A DNA stretch of 5,161 bases from Candidatus Desantisiibacteriota bacterium (GTDB lineage Bacteria; JACRDZ01). Both the position numbers and the translations under genes were made by a program. Shown piece after piece: positions 589-5,161 of this stretch. Location of the stretch: NCBI GenBank assembly GCA_016209155.1, contig JACQWU010000158.1:1-5161 (forward strand). Reading direction: 5' to 3'. Each line of letters opens with the position of its first letter. Position 1 is the first letter of the stretch. The notes under the pieces are model-generated. The model had not been told where the DNA came from. It did no database searches and worked only from the letters and a program-made list of their open reading frames with translations.

Positions 589-813
589 ATGATAAAAAAA
601 ACCGGTAAAACAGTTTTCGGAATTTATATAATTATTTTATTTTTATTAATCACAGCGGTTGCTGTCAATACTTTTCATCCTTTTCAGACCGCTAGAATTA
701 ATTTATCATATAATAATGATTTAATAAAAACAATAGACGGTATTATGGAAAAAGCTCTTTCCTTTAAAGAAGCACAATATTTCGAAGTAATAGAGGAAAA
801 TAATTTAAAATGA
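589..813 (+). CDS. Small single-span membrane protein; possible detached N-terminal anchor of AmrS
   Basis: This 74-residue ORF has a lysine-rich start (MIKKTGK), one hydrophobic helix at about residues 9-27 (FGIYIIILFLLITAVAV) and a short soluble tail, so it is probably an N-in membrane anchor with its tail outside the cytoplasm. A purine-rich site (GGAAAAG, 576-582) lies 6 nt before the ATG. Its TGA overlaps the AmrS ATG as ATGA (810-813), which implies translational coupling. The tail ends in FKEAQYFEVIEENNLK. From memory, many AmrS-family proteins carry a comparable stretch (EAMYYEKL..NKVQ) just before their first CxxC, some after a membrane or Tat leader. This ORF may therefore be the N-terminal anchor of AmrS, separated by a frameshift or evolved into its own ORF. 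I recognise no family for it as a free-standing protein. It is very likely coding, given the anchor, spacing and overlap; its function is unknown. Confidence 0.6.
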   Translation: MIKKTGKTVFGIYIIILFLLITAVAVNTFHPFQTARINLSYNNDLIKTIDGIMEKALSFKEAQYFEVIEENNLK

Positions 814-1967
814 TATCTTCGTCTAAGATAGTACAATGTAAATTATGCCCTAAGGAATGCAAACTGCATCAGGGAGAAAAAGGTGACTGCAGAGTAAGAG
901 TAAATATCGGGAATAAACTTTACAGTCTTGTGTATGGAAAACCATGCGCAGTTCATATTGATCCGATAGAAAAAAAACCTATGTTTCACTTTCTCCCCGG
1001 AGCCAGAGCTTTTTCTATAGCAACTGCGGGCTGTAATTTGCACTGCAAATTTTGTCAAAACTGGGAAATTTCCCAGACTCCGCCTGAGGAAACTAATAAT
1101 CAAGACCTTCTCCCGTCTCACGTGATACAGGAAACATTATTAGCAGGATGTGAGACTATAGCGTTTACATACTCGGATCCGATGATCTATTATGAATATA
1201 CATATGATACAGCAGTCATTGCAAAAGAGAAAGGGATCAGAAATATTCTGGTTACTGCAAGTTATATTAATCCCGAACCCCTGAAAAAACTATGCAAGGT
1301 CATTCATGGAGCAAATGTTGATATAAAATCCTTTGAAGAAAAATTTTATCAAAATATTTGCGGGGCAAGACTTAAACCGGTACTTGATGCTCTTTTAATT
1401 TATAAAGAAGAAGGCGTTTTTGTGGAAATTACTAATCTTCTGGTAACTTCCTTAAATGATGATCCTAAAATTATAAAAAAAATGTGTAATTGGATATTTA
1501 AGGAAATGGGGGATGATATTCCTCTTCATTTTTCCCGTTTCTGGCCTTTATATCAGCTTAAAAATTTGCCTCCGACACCTGTTCCGTCATTAATAACGGC
1601 GCGTCAAATTGCCATTGATTCCGGATTAAAATATGTTTATATTGGTAATGTTCCGGGACTTGACGGCGAAAATACCTATTGCCCTAATTGCCATAACTCT
1701 ATTATTAGGCGTATTGGATTTGACGTTTATAATAATTTAGTGTTGAATAGACTGAAGGCTGAAGGTTTTTATGTACGGATCATAAGGGGGAAAAAAATGA
1801 GTGAAATATACAGACGTGATTTTATTAAAATGATAGTCAGTGCTTTTTTGGGATTATTAATCAGTAAAATTTGGACTAAAAAACAGGATGAAAGCTCATC
1901 ATTCGAAAAAGCAGCGGACATTGGAAACGAATATAAAGAAGCTATGTTTTATAAAGTATTCAGGTGA
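810..1967 (+). CDS. amrS: AmmeMemoRadiSam system radical SAM enzyme, with abnormal C-terminal extension
   Basis: This 385-residue frame holds a nearly complete radical SAM enzyme of the AmrS type (PflA-like, partner of AMMECR1 and Memo proteins, substrate unknown). An N-terminal cysteine cluster (CKLCPKEC at 10-17, then C27) precedes YSLVYGKPCAVHIDPIEKKP and FLPGARAFSIATAGCN. The 4Fe-4S/SAM motif is C75-x3-C79-x2-C82 followed by QNWEISQ. Further family blocks are ANVDIKSF, VEITNLLV, PLHFSRFWPLY, GLKYVYIGNVPG and YCPNC (C291, C294). Two usual blocks differ: TYSDP (commonly TYxEP) and VTASYINPEP (commonly VTNGYINPEP). The family normally ends soon after with CPxCGxxIPGxW. Here that stretch reads GFYVRIIRG, without cysteines or a stop, and the frame continues through ATG 1797 into a Tat-like leader. 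The ATG at 810 is the only start in this frame, because TAA at 801-803 closes it; a possible SD, GAGGAAAA (793-800), sits inside the upstream ORF. AmrA and AmrB are not in the window. The family call is firm; whether the enzyme is active is not known. Confidence 0.9.
   Translation: MISSSKIVQCKLCPKECKLHQGEKGDCRVRVNIGNKLYSLVYGKPCAVHIDPIEKKPMFHFLPGARAFSIATAGCNLHCKFCQNWEISQTPPEETNNQDLLPSHVIQETLLAGCETIAFTYSDPMIYYEYTYDTAVIAKEKGIRNILVTASYINPEPLKKLCKVIHGANVDIKSFEEKFYQNICGARLKPVLDALLIYKEEGVFVEITNLLVTSLNDDPKIIKKMCNWIFKEMGDDIPLHFSRFWPLYQLKNLPPTPVPSLITARQIAIDSGLKYVYIGNVPGLDGENTYCPNCHNSIIRRIGFDVYNNLVLNRLKAEGFYVRIIRGKKMSEIYRRDFIKMIVSAFLGLLISKIWTKKQDESSSFEKAADIGNEYKEAMFYKVFR
1784..1790 (+). promoter_or_regulatory. 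Strong internal Shine-Dalgarno before ATG 1797
   Basis: AAGGGGG lies 6 nt before an ATG that is in frame with amrS. It is a better ribosome binding site than those of the two upstream ORFs. A site like this inside a coding frame suggests that ATG 1797 was, or still is, a true gene start and that the amrS frame has lost its own stop codon just upstream. Confidence 0.6.
1797..1967 (+). pseudogene. Tat-leader gene start, truncated after 56 codons (in frame with amrS)
   Basis: From ATG 1797 the protein begins MSEIYRRDFIK, close to the twin-arginine consensus (S/T)RRxFLK. A hydrophobic stretch (MIVSAFLGLLISKIW) and a charged linker (TKKQDESSSFEKAAD) follow. It then ends NEYKEAMFYKVFR with TGA at 1965-1967. 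This is the layout of an exported enzyme's N-terminus with no catalytic body. The last ten residues closely resemble the end of the ORF at 589-813 (YKEAMFYKVF against FKEAQYFEVI), so it may be the start of a second, Tat-exported AmrS-like protein. A DUF362-type Tat protein, whose mature part often starts with a 'Gx(D/E)Y..' segment, is an alternative. Neither CxLCPxxC nor a GGIxxFV-like continuation appears in any forward frame after the stop. It could also be translated as a C-terminal tail of AmrS, or independently as a small membrane peptide. Confidence 0.45.
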
Positions 1968-2371: not shown

Positions 2372-3448
2372 TTATAATTTTACCAATTCCAATAGAATTG
2401 CAGGTATTCTGTTTAAGTCCTCAATTGAAATTTCTTCTTTAGTAGTATGTACATTTTTTGCACCTGTTCCTATATTAACTACTTTTATATTATGCGCGTG
2501 AAATGCATTGGCATCAGAACCTCCTCCGGAAAGAATGTATTGAGATTGCAATTTAAACTTCTTAAGGATAAAGTTGATTTTTTTTATCAACAAATTACCT
2601 TTATAAAATTTATATCCATGACAAACCAGATCAGTATTAAAAATAAGTTGAGCTTTATTTTTTTTCGCAGCATTTTCAAAAGCTTTTCTCATTCTTGCAA
2701 TTTGACGATTCATTTTCATGGAATTATGGCTTCTAACCTCCGCTGTAATTTCCACTTTATCCGGAATACTGTTGCGTATTTTACCGCCCTTTATAATTCC
2801 AATATTAGAAGAAGTTTCTTTATCAATTCTTCCCAATTTAACATGCGCTATACCATCCCCTGCTGCTTTTATTGCATTTATCCCTTTTTCAGGTTCTATC
2901 CCTGAATGAGCAGATTTTCCGATTATTTCAATATTAATATTTGTAATATAAGGAGCTCCCATTACTATTTCATTTATCTTTCCGCCGTCAATAGTCACCC
3001 CATATTTAGCATCTATTAAGGAATAATTCAGTTTCTGCGCACCTATGGTACCTATTTCTTCCTGTACCGAAAAAACAATTTCAAGCGGGTAATGTTTTAT
3101 CTGGGTTTCTTTTAATACAGAAATAAGTTCTAAAATCGCCGCTACTCCGGCTTTATCATCCGCTCCGAGAATTGTATTTCCTTCAACATTAACTATCCCG
3201 TCTTTCACACATGGCTTTATATCATTGCATGGCTGTACTGTATCAATATGAGCATTAAGGAGAAAACAATGCCCCCCCATACCTTCTTTTTTTGCAATAA
3301 TATTTCCAAAAGAATCAACAATAGTAGTAACCCCTGATTTTTTTAAATATTTAATTATCCAATCACGTATTTTATCTTCCTGTCCCGAAGGGCTCTCTAT
3401 TTTTACAAGCTCCAAAAAAGTTTTAAGTAAACGATCATGCTTAATCAT
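2372..3448 (-). CDS. M20-family metallopeptidase, peptidase T-like
   Basis: This complete 358-residue protein is a dinuclear zinc exopeptidase of the M20/M28 superfamily, closest by eye to the 'peptidase T-like' M20 group. Expected metal ligands are present: H67 (NAHIDTV), the bridging D97 (GADDKAG), E131 with catalytic E130 (QEEIG), D154 (TIDGG) and H334 (NVHTTKEE). The inserted lid or dimerisation domain spans about residues 165-275 and contains GKSAHSGIEPEKGINAI. A glycine-rich GGGSDAN (308-314) precedes the last ligand. With no signal peptide it is probably cytosolic, trimming short peptides. A good SD (GGGGAG, plus-strand 3455-3460) sits 6 nt before the ATG. It lies 126 bp downstream of lptA on the same strand, across an inverted repeat, so it may have its own transcript or be read through. 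Exact substrate, such as tripeptides, cannot be told from sequence. Confidence 0.9.
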   Translation of the reverse strand: MIKHDRLLKTFLELVKIESPSGQEDKIRDWIIKYLKKSGVTTIVDSFGNIIAKKEGMGGHCFLLNAHIDTVQPCNDIKPCVKDGIVNVEGNTILGADDKAGVAAILELISVLKETQIKHYPLEIVFSVQEEIGTIGAQKLNYSLIDAKYGVTIDGGKINEIVMGAPYITNINIEIIGKSAHSGIEPEKGINAIKAAGDGIAHVKLGRIDKETSSNIGIIKGGKIRNSIPDKVEITAEVRSHNSMKMNRQIARMRKAFENAAKKNKAQLIFNTDLVCHGYKFYKGNLLIKKINFILKKFKLQSQYILSGGGSDANAFHAHNIKVVNIGTGAKNVHTTKEEISIEDLNRIPAILLELVKL

Positions 3449-3483
3449 TTTTTTCTCCCCAAAAAATAAGGTAATGTCAAAAA

Positions 3484-3548
3484 TTAACCACAGTGCACAG
3501 AGAATTCAACAAATTTAAAAAAAGTTTTTCTCAGTGTTCTGTGGTTAA
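3484..3548. repeat. Imperfect inverted repeat (CCACAG hairpin) between lptA and peptidase
   Basis: The arms at 3484-3504 and 3528-3548 pair at 18 of 21 positions around a 23-nt AT-rich loop. The outer ten bases (TTAACCACAG and CTGTGGTTAA) match perfectly and the inner GAGAA/TTCTC pairs again. On the minus strand it follows the lptA stop by 26 nt and is followed by TTTTTG; on the plus strand it is followed by eight T, so it could end transcription in either direction. The arm resembles the 'CCACAGAG.ACACAGAG' intergenic repeat that I recall from many environmental bacterial genomes, which would make it a dispersed REP or MITE-like element rather than a dedicated terminator. Copy number cannot be judged from one window. 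Confidence 0.7.
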
Positions 3549-3574
3549 ATCTTTTTTTTGTTGTTCATTTTTTT

Positions 3575-4252
3575 CTATTTTTTTATGTTTTTATCAGGTA
3601 TGACTGTTCCTTTGACACTATTGTTCATAATAATACGGTTATCATCCATAAAAAAAATAATTTCTTCAGCAGCAAAAACATTTTTCATTTGCACTATTTT
3701 AGCATTTTTAGTCATTATAAGTTTTTTTTCTTTTTGATAAAAAATAGCAGACTTACTCCATGCTTCTATTTGATCATATATAATATGAACATCATCTGTA
3801 ATGACAACCTGCCCTTTATCTGAATACAGGTCCATCTGAATTCCTGTTACTTCAATTTTTTTGTTGTCTTTTTTTTGAATTATAACAAGATGAGGGGTGC
3901 TGGTCATCATTGCGTGGCGCTTATCTTTATTGAATTCTCCTTTGCCTCCCGTCAAAATAAATTTCCATTCCGGATCTTCGGTCTCTATTTTAATATTCCC
4001 TTCACCCAAAACCCGGCCTTCACTGCTATATAAAGTTAATTTATCACCATTCAGTTTAAAATCTTTTTGTTCCAGGTATACATTTCCTGTGAACAGCCCT
4101 ATTTCCTGCCCTCTCTTAAATACATATTCCACATTATCCGCTTTAATATTTAAAGGCGCTTCTTCGGCAGGCAAAGTAGAATCATTATCCGCTCCGCTTA
4201 TTGATATCAAATTTATAAAAAAGAACAATGCAATTACCTGCCACTTCTTCAT
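3575..4252 (-). CDS. lptA: LptA/OstA-family periplasmic LPS-transport protein
   Basis: This 225-residue protein has a signal peptide (MKKW, then a hydrophobic stretch to about residue 19, with likely cleavage near SISGA-D). A beta-rich OstA/LptA domain follows. Family features include APLNIKADNVEYVF (32-45), FTGNVYLEQKDFKLNGDKLTLY (in two halves, 54-75), GEGNIKIE (83-90), VVITDDVHIIYDQIEAW (149-165) and SAIFYQKEKKLIM followed by NAKIVQ. These repeating strands build the open beta-jellyroll that carries LPS across the periplasm between LptC and LptD. An AAAGGA SD (plus-strand 4262-4267) lies 9 nt before the ATG, and lptC ends 20 bp upstream. It is somewhat longer than the E. coli LptA of about 185 residues, so a longer OstA-type variant is possible. 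lptB does not follow it in this window. Confidence 0.85.
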   Translation of the reverse strand: MKKWQVIALFFFINLISISGADNDSTLPAEEAPLNIKADNVEYVFKRGQEIGLFTGNVYLEQKDFKLNGDKLTLYSSEGRVLGEGNIKIETEDPEWKFILTGGKGEFNKDKRHAMMTSTPHLVIIQKKDNKKIEVTGIQMDLYSDKGQVVITDDVHIIYDQIEAWSKSAIFYQKEKKLIMTKNAKIVQMKNVFAAEEIIFFMDDNRIIMNNSVKGTVIPDKNIKK

Positions 4253-4272
4253 TTATTATAATCCTTTGTTTT

Positions 4273-4833
4273 TTACTTTTTTTTCAGGAAATGGAATGCT
4301 TCTTCTTTAACCGTTTTAACTTCTACATCTTTTAAAATTTTTATATTTTCTAAATTCGGATCTGTAATAAGTCCATTGCCTGTTAATACACTATGATCTT
4401 TAACAACTTTCACATATGAATCTGTCTTAAAAGTATGTTCTTTTGCGTCCCAATTCAATTTATCTGTTTCCAAAACAATATTTTTTGAAGATGTAATCCT
4501 TACATTACCTCTGGTTAATATATCTTTTTTATCAACACCAATCTCTGCCTCAGCTGCTTTAAGCTGTGAAAAAATTTTATCTTTATCATAAAAAATCATT
4601 TCTATTTCTGCTACTAAAATTATTTTTTTGTTCTCGTAAATATCGGCAGAACGGGCTTTCAATTCCCATTCACGAGCTCCTTTTAGCGTCTCTGTGAGAG
4701 TAAACCCTTCAATATGCAGAGACGGTTCAGTCTTTCCCTCTTTAGTTTTAGATATAGGCAAATTATTTGAATTGGAATTACATGAAAATAAAAAAAATAA
4801 TAAAAAAACAATAAATGCTTTATATGTTTTCAT
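4273..4833 (-). CDS. lptC: LptC, LPS export periplasmic protein, probable lipoprotein
   Basis: This 186-residue protein starts with a lipoprotein-like signal (MKTYKAFIVFLLFFLFSC) whose lipobox LFSC puts a lipidated cysteine at position 18. A polar linker (NSNSNNLPISKTKEGKTEP) leads to the LptC domain. Recognisable parts are LHIEGFTLTETLKGAREWELKA (in two parts, 39-60), ARSADIYENKKIILVAEI, GNVRITSSKNIVLETDKLNWDAKEHTFKT and LTGNGLITDPNLENIKILKDV. LptC accepts LPS from the LptBFG transporter and hands it to LptA. The E. coli protein uses a transmembrane helix instead, so a lipid anchor would be a variant attachment. It sits 11 bp after kdsC and 20 bp before lptA, the usual gene order, which supports the assignment. 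The SD is weak (A/G-rich AAAGAAAAAG), so coupling to kdsC translation is likely. Confidence 0.85.
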   Translation of the reverse strand: MKTYKAFIVFLLFFLFSCNSNSNNLPISKTKEGKTEPSLHIEGFTLTETLKGAREWELKARSADIYENKKIILVAEIEMIFYDKDKIFSQLKAAEAEIGVDKKDILTRGNVRITSSKNIVLETDKLNWDAKEHTFKTDSYVKVVKDHSVLTGNGLITDPNLENIKILKDVEVKTVKEEAFHFLKKK

Positions 4834-4844
4834 TAACTTTTTCT

Positions 4845-5161
4845 TTATATATAATATTTACGGGTCACATCATTCCATTTTTTTTGAGTTTTCAGGATCA
4901 AATCTACTATTTCCCGTACTGCTCCTTCTCCGCCTTTTCTATTTGTAATATAATCGGCTTCCTTTTTTACTTCAAGAACAGCATTATTTACAGCAACAGC
5001 AAACCCAACTCTTTTCAGAACTCCGATATCTATAAGGTCATCACCCATATAAGCAACTTCATCATGAGCTAAATTATAATGAGATATTATTTTTTCCAAT
5101 GCTTCAACCTTAATAAAAACTTTCTGGTATATATCTTTTATTCCGATACTTAATGCCCATT
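4845..5161 (-). CDS. kdsC: 3-deoxy-D-manno-octulosonate 8-phosphate phosphatase, C-terminal part (5' end outside window)
   Basis: The last 104 residues of a HAD-superfamily (IIIC) phosphatase are visible; the frame is open through the window edge, so the TTG near 5099 is internal. Visible features are ALSIGIKDIYQKVFIK with a lysine in the motif III area, then EVAYMGDDLID, which is motif IV with two metal-binding aspartates, then VGFAVAVNNAVLEVKKEADYIT and GGEGAVREIVDLIL. These match KdsC, which hydrolyses KDO-8-phosphate to KDO and phosphate for the LPS core. The usual 'YQGxxDK' reads YQKVFIK, a small change whose effect is unknown. Being followed directly by lptC and lptA strongly supports KdsC over other small HAD phosphatases. 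The nucleophile motif DxDG lies outside the window. Confidence 0.88.
   Translation of the reverse strand, partial: WALSIGIKDIYQKVFIKVEALEKIISHYNLAHDEVAYMGDDLIDIGVLKRVGFAVAVNNAVLEVKKEADYITNRKGGEGAVREIVDLILKTQKKWNDVTRKYYI

Follow-up and report, generated by a model that had tools for sequence, protein, structure and literature searches.

The AmmeMemoRadiSam system comprises a radical SAM enzyme, here called AmrS (TIGR04337), together with Memo (PF01875) and AMMECR1 (PF01871), and its human relatives, MEMO1 and AMMECR1, are conserved. We know of no reaction that has been assigned to this system and, to our knowledge, no periplasmic radical SAM enzyme has been described. Nothing in the open-access literature that we searched dealt directly with exported radical SAM enzymes or with AmmeMemoRadiSam function. 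Two other bodies of work bear on the locus described below. The [NiFe] hydrogenases, formate dehydrogenases and PaoABC of E. coli are hitchhiker complexes of the Tat pathway (PMC10924467, PMC4273604), and signal-less subunits of the hydrogenases and formate dehydrogenases travel through Tat with their partner (PMC10924467). The borosins are the subject of PMC8429565.

Organization of the locus

The window, by which we mean the whole 5,161-nucleotide stretch of DNA that was analyzed, is one contig (C98) of an assembly of 3.08 Mb in 352 contigs, with a completeness of about 79%. It encodes an AmrS preceded by a small ORF, U, and followed by another, D (Table 1). The initial annotation had noticed that the peptides FKEAQYFEVI and YKEAMFYKVF share a motif, and both lie where it placed them.

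Table 1. Positions of the parts of the split amrS locus in the window
Feature	Position	Strand	Description
U	589..813	+	74-aa single-TM small protein, proposed upstream docking peptide; TM about 613-675
FKEAQYFEVI in U	763-792	+	Residues 59-68 of the 74-aa ORF; then six residues, EENNLK
ATGA, U stop/amrS start overlap	810..813	+	Translational coupling
amrS core	810..1796	+	TIGR04337 radical SAM enzyme without N-terminal EAxYY strand; frame open to 1967
AAGGGGG, Shine-Dalgarno-like	1784..1790	+	5' of in-frame ATG 1797; judged by eye
D	1797..1967	+	56-aa peptide: twin-arginine, hydrophobic segment, C-terminal YKEAMFYKVFR; stop 1965-1967
Twin-arginine YRRDFIK in D	1809-1829	+	
YKEAMFYKVF in D	1932-1961	+	Followed by R and the stop

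The AmrS of the window matches TIGR04337 at 358.7 bits (cut-off 220), and both its first cluster (C10/C13/C17/C27; CxxCxxxC...C) and its radical SAM CxxxCxxC (C75/C79/C82; 1032-1055) are invariant. Its N-terminus reads MISSSKIVQC, and the EAxYYxxL strand is absent from this chain and present on U and D; the family membership stands nonetheless, because the strand lies outside the curated model's cut-off. At the other end, the two-knuckle cysteine ribbon is incomplete: CPNC is kept, and the second cysteine pair, which nearly all relatives retain, is replaced by the frame into D. Positions 810-1967 form a single open frame of 385 amino acids, with zero stop codons between amrS (ATG at 810) and D. 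Given that this copy lacks both the second cysteine pair and a stop before D, it may be degenerate or mis-assembled; the missing stop and cysteine pair, seen on one contig, could reflect real divergence, degeneration or an assembly error. The in-frame run into D with loss of the last cysteine pair and the stop (1720-1800) was unseen among the relatives inspected. The overlap of U and amrS at ATGA is common to L005, L008, L042 and L047. Elsewhere in the window, the minus strand carries a run of genes (2372-5159) that encode a PepT-like M20 peptidase and then LptA, LptC and KdsC-like proteins, an ordinary LPS-export cluster.

Where the N-terminus of AmrS is intact, in cytosolic, TM-anchored and Tat-fused proteins alike, (E/P)A-x-arom-arom-x-x-L lies about 10 residues ahead of the first CxxCxxxC, which bears out the earlier remark that a KEA-aromatic stretch immediately precedes the first cysteine cluster of such proteins. 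One copy of the motif in the window is on a TM-anchored peptide and the other on a twin-arginine peptide, as had been noted, and both relate to AmrS N-termini. U has no RR and its motif follows the helix, and D shows a Tat motif of the S/T-RR-x-F-L-K type and a hydrophobic segment (YRRDFIKMIVSAFLGLLISKIW).

We used AlphaFold (AF2) models to consider the structure of the motif. In the model of a Tat-fused AmrS (L065; mean pLDDT 94.9, 74-row alignment), a strand at 50-53 (YEKL) is followed by a strand at 57-60 (RIKC) that enters the first cysteine, C60. We read these two strands as a predicted hairpin, and on this model the cut site of the split AmrS forms would be the loop between them. In the model of the AmrS-D frame of the window, whose alignment had no paired D rows, the core is confident, the first strand is just two residues long and the D segment is undocked (pLDDT about 40). 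A search for a solved AmrS structure gave the PFL-activating enzyme as its sole sequence match (E 2e-4), and the same enzyme is the best fold match of AmrS.

Distribution and conservation of U and D

We surveyed the flanks of 100 AmrS loci, all from assemblies and many of these metagenomic, looking for short ORFs that combine a hydrophobic stretch with the motif close to their end. Duplicates were removed (L004/L037, L005/L040, L006/L043 and L008/L051 are duplicate pairs), and expected counts were taken from dinucleotide shuffles. AmrS classes were set by simple rules, which mis-scored some loci. Beside AmrS scored as lacking its own EAxYY motif, U was found in 11/34 loci (0.10 expected), D in 17/34 (0.08 expected) and both in 8/34, whereas motif-bearing AmrS had U in 0/66 loci and D in 1/66. 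The corresponding Fisher P values (U, 2e-6; D, 5e-9) overstate independence because the rows share ancestry. The one D beside a motif-bearing AmrS belongs to a mis-scored locus, L039, whose AmrS is really without the motif. In other words, the occurrence of U and D is complementary to the loss of the motif from AmrS, and the similarity of U and D to each other is not due to chance. The 34 motif-less loci span several phyla. Inspection added a U in L069 and, further out, a U and a D in L049, and some core-only loci, such as L061, were without both. A variant of D, with RR and a TM segment, lies 3' of amrS in L085, L064, L081 and L107 (Lentisphaerae, Hydrogenedentota, Phycisphaerae and Auribacterota) and ends in ..PG....(K)WxG in place of EAxYY; several other D peptides terminate in LAG.

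In relatives from many phyla, a single motif-less AmrS is flanked by U and/or D, each of them encoded by a small gene that ends in its own stop codon. This split state occurs in 32 of 105 rows, spans at least 10 phyla and changes four times on a quick tree whose root was not inferred. Tat-fused AmrS proteins are common, and on the same unrooted tree those of Bacteroidota are nested in a mainly split clade, a position that would fit re-fusion of a D-like leader. The aromatic pair is kept in both the U and the D families. For the closest pair of genomes (G003 versus G001; L006/L007), the dN/dS values are 0.04 (U), 0.26 (D) and 0.03 (AmrS), all of them rough because synonymous sites are near saturation; in this pair, U and D thus appear to be under purifying selection.

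Next, we searched 60 genomes with a profile (A3) built from 20 D peptides. Free-standing D peptides next to amrS were matched at E 1e-11 to 1e-15 (5e-14 for that of the window), followed by the N-termini of Tat-fused AmrS proteins in G057, G037 and G004 (about 1e-5) and G045 (1.5e-4); weaker matches are ordinary Tat-type N-termini and are uninformative. Most D peptides have the twin arginine, whereas those of the same-phylum relatives G001-G003 have KR or RK, and use of Tat is therefore doubtful there. TatC is encoded in 8/8 genomes tested, including that of the window (G000), which is a weak test because TatC is common. Neither D nor U had a convincing match to known families in Pfam or NCBIfam, so that the leader at 1797 does not belong to DUF362, a family that the initial annotation had named as a possible home for it. 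In an Omnitrophota locus (L110, 3147-6113), tatC lies directly 5' of two tandem, overlapping Tat-fused amrS genes.

A second profile (A4), built from 12 U peptides, was searched in 290 genomes and gave matches at E<=1e-4 in 10 of them, and in 10/10 the genome encodes an AmrS at least 49% identical to that of the window. Three of the matched U peptides are independent of the training set, not counting G188, which repeats L047. In G043, U and AmrS are unlinked, on contigs C56 and C122. In the one-contig genome G246, the order is NosR-like protein, U, AmrS, D and Memo lipoprotein, with D and the Memo signal sharing one frame. In G210, an FMN-binding membrane protein is encoded directly 5' of U, and some 5.5 kb separate U from AmrS. 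Conservation of the 74-residue ORF as an independent protein away from amrS had been named as a finding that would refute the initial reading; unlinked U does exist, but the genomes concerned still hold an AmrS of the split group.

Where at least 2.5 kb of upstream sequence was available, a NosR-like protein (FMN_bind and Fer4_5) was encoded directly upstream of U in 7/9 loci, compared with 1/12 D-only loci (P 0.002). Overall, such a protein adjoins U or is fused to it in 10 of 18 U loci, and in the two fusions (L033 and L052) the U segment forms its C-terminus. These proteins match the NosR, RnfG and NapH models below cut-off. In the window and in G001-G003, U has no NosR-like gene as its neighbor; G001-G003 have copies elsewhere in the genome, and the genome of the window has just partial FMN_bind matches, on C339 and C210. 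As judged from gene neighborhoods, the association probably links U to an electron-transfer membrane protein.

Partners in the genome

The genome of the window encodes, on C182, a Memo-AMMECR1 fusion whose start is lipoprotein-like (MRKKFILNWIVSFMCIFFAC), and separately a cytosolic Memo on C342 and a second AmrS on C340. It therefore appears to have two sets, one exported and the other cytosolic. The second AmrS, the sole other one in this genome, has its own motif and no Tat leader; the initial annotation had suggested looking here for an amrS whose N-terminus matches the leader at 1797, and there is none. Memo-AMMECR1 proteins encoded beside Tat-fused and split AmrS have lipoprotein, Sec or TM N-termini nearly throughout. 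The system thus looks exported, as had been suggested earlier.

In 37 loci, exported-type AmrS has, at a distance of up to about 5 kb, a gene for a multi-TM protein that bears a Spermine_synth domain (in L110, PF01564 at 6130-8376 (-)); after correction of mis-scored loci, this gene is near no AmrS judged truly cytosolic. The genome of the window has a full-length copy elsewhere (C159:6262-8517 (-)). A link of this protein to SAM handling is possible.

Proposed mechanism and alternatives

We suggest, with a probability of about 0.58, that the window holds a split, exported variant of the AmmeMemoRadiSam system, in which D would give the Tat signal in trans and U would serve as a membrane anchor tied to an electron donor. 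The N-terminal hairpin strand that AmrS lacks would be supplied in trans by these two small membrane proteins. D, with a Tat-type signal and the strand, would dock in the cytoplasm on folded, cluster-loaded AmrS by beta-strand complementation, and would take it along as a hitchhiker through the Tat translocon. U, with a Sec-type anchor and the same strand, would keep AmrS on the outside of the membrane, where the enzyme would sit beside the NosR-like FMN/polyferredoxin electron donor and the lipid-anchored Memo-AMMECR1. The data show the genes, their conservation, their complementarity to motif loss in AmrS, the fusions of U to NosR-like proteins, the lipoprotein-like signal of Memo and, in the model of a fused AmrS, the predicted hairpin; we infer the physical docking, the Tat export, the order of exchange and the electron transfer. 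The full scheme, that is, radical SAM chemistry outside the cytoplasm with a Tat mini-carrier, hand-over to a strand-bearing anchor linked to a NosR-like protein, electrons passing across the membrane and a lipid-anchored Memo-AMMECR1 partner, is tentative, and we hold it to be rather doubtful as a whole. Several points stand against our explanation. U and D share the strand and would compete for one site, and an exported AmrS would need a supply of SAM outside the cytoplasm, which is unexplained. The undocked D segment in the model of the AmrS-D frame, the KR or RK of the same-phylum D peptides, the C-terminal defects of the AmrS in the window, the lack of a NosR-like neighbor of U in the window and in G001-G003, and the core-only loci without U and D count against it as well. 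If the proposal is true, then it provides an example of a radical SAM enzyme that acts outside the cytoplasm and of a complementing strand that serves as the tag for Tat export. Because a conserved form that is split and exported would come with small partners that are defined and with a candidate donor of electrons, the location, wiring and partners of the enzyme become testable.

We also considered the possibility that U and D are substrates, with AmrS, together with a LigB-like Memo and AMMECR1, modifying the C-terminal aromatic pair in the manner of RiPP enzymes; a fused AmrS would then carry its substrate in cis. The short C-terminal location of the motif and the aromatic pair kept in both families are in keeping with this, as is the closeness in fold of AmrS to the PFL-activating enzyme, which acts on a peptide. 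Among the borosins, moreover, enzymes are known whose peptide substrate is either fused to them or discrete. However, cytosolic AmrS retains the motif as the N-terminus of its own chain, the aromatic positions can be Y, F, W or H, and the L065 model predicts the motif to be a well-ordered structural strand. We therefore consider the substrate reading unlikely.

It is likewise quite improbable that U and D just anchor AmrS to the cytoplasmic side of the membrane, with nothing exported and the twin arginine incidental. Radical SAM chemistry needs SAM and a strong reductant, normally cytosolic, and the RK or KR of the same-phylum D peptides would suit such an arrangement. On the other hand, the motif follows the TM segment and would therefore lie outside for an N-in helix, and both the export signals of the Memo-AMMECR1 partners, lipoprotein or other, and the frequency of Tat-fused AmrS argue against it.

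The initial annotation had explained the shared motif by two AmrS-like genes, one TM-anchored and one Tat-targeted, of which the first had been separated from its anchor and nothing but the leader was left of the second, so that U and D would be remnants of decay. The equivalence of the motifs is real, and the AmrS of the window looks damaged at its C-terminus. A search of relatives for tandem copies had been suggested; the pair of Tat-fused genes in L110 makes an ancestral tandem conceivable, but it is the only pair found. However, U and D recur with their own stops around one AmrS in many phyla and appear to be under purifying selection, and U is found unlinked, as in G043, and fused to NosR-like proteins. 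We regard two decayed AmrS genes as very improbable.

A programmed -1 ribosomal frameshift at TTTAAAATGA, which would join U to AmrS in one TM-anchored protein with D as its C-terminal tail through the open AmrS-D frame, is scarcely credible and was rejected, since the heptamer TTTAAAA, although in phase just before the U stop, is not kept in relatives (their junctions are GTAAAATGA, GCTGAATGA or GAGCCATGA, or else the U stop precedes the start of amrS), and D is a separate ORF in relatives, with its own SD-like site in the window.

Comparison with known systems

The split, exported locus that we propose resembles the usual AmmeMemoRadiSam system in that its AmrS scores above the cut-off of TIGR04337 and Memo and AMMECR1-like partners are present in the genome. 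It differs in that the strand is missing in cis and is found on two separate small proteins, the partners appear to be exported, and the copy in the window is without the C-terminal cysteine pair. Tat-fused AmrS proteins (e.g. L065 and L099) have the same succession of a twin-arginine segment, EAxYYxxL and the cysteine cluster; in them, however, signal, strand and enzyme are one chain, whereas in the window D is encoded after AmrS. As in Tat hitchhiker complexes, a signal-less cofactor enzyme could be exported by a twin-arginine partner, but the known carriers are full enzyme subunits, and D would be a signal and a docking strand alone. Finally, the proteins encoded before U have FMN_bind and Fer4_5, like the FMN/polyferredoxin membrane proteins of the NosR and RnfG-NapH type; those linked to U do not reach the length of the NosR model, either contain the putative U docking segment or precede it, and sit beside amrS.
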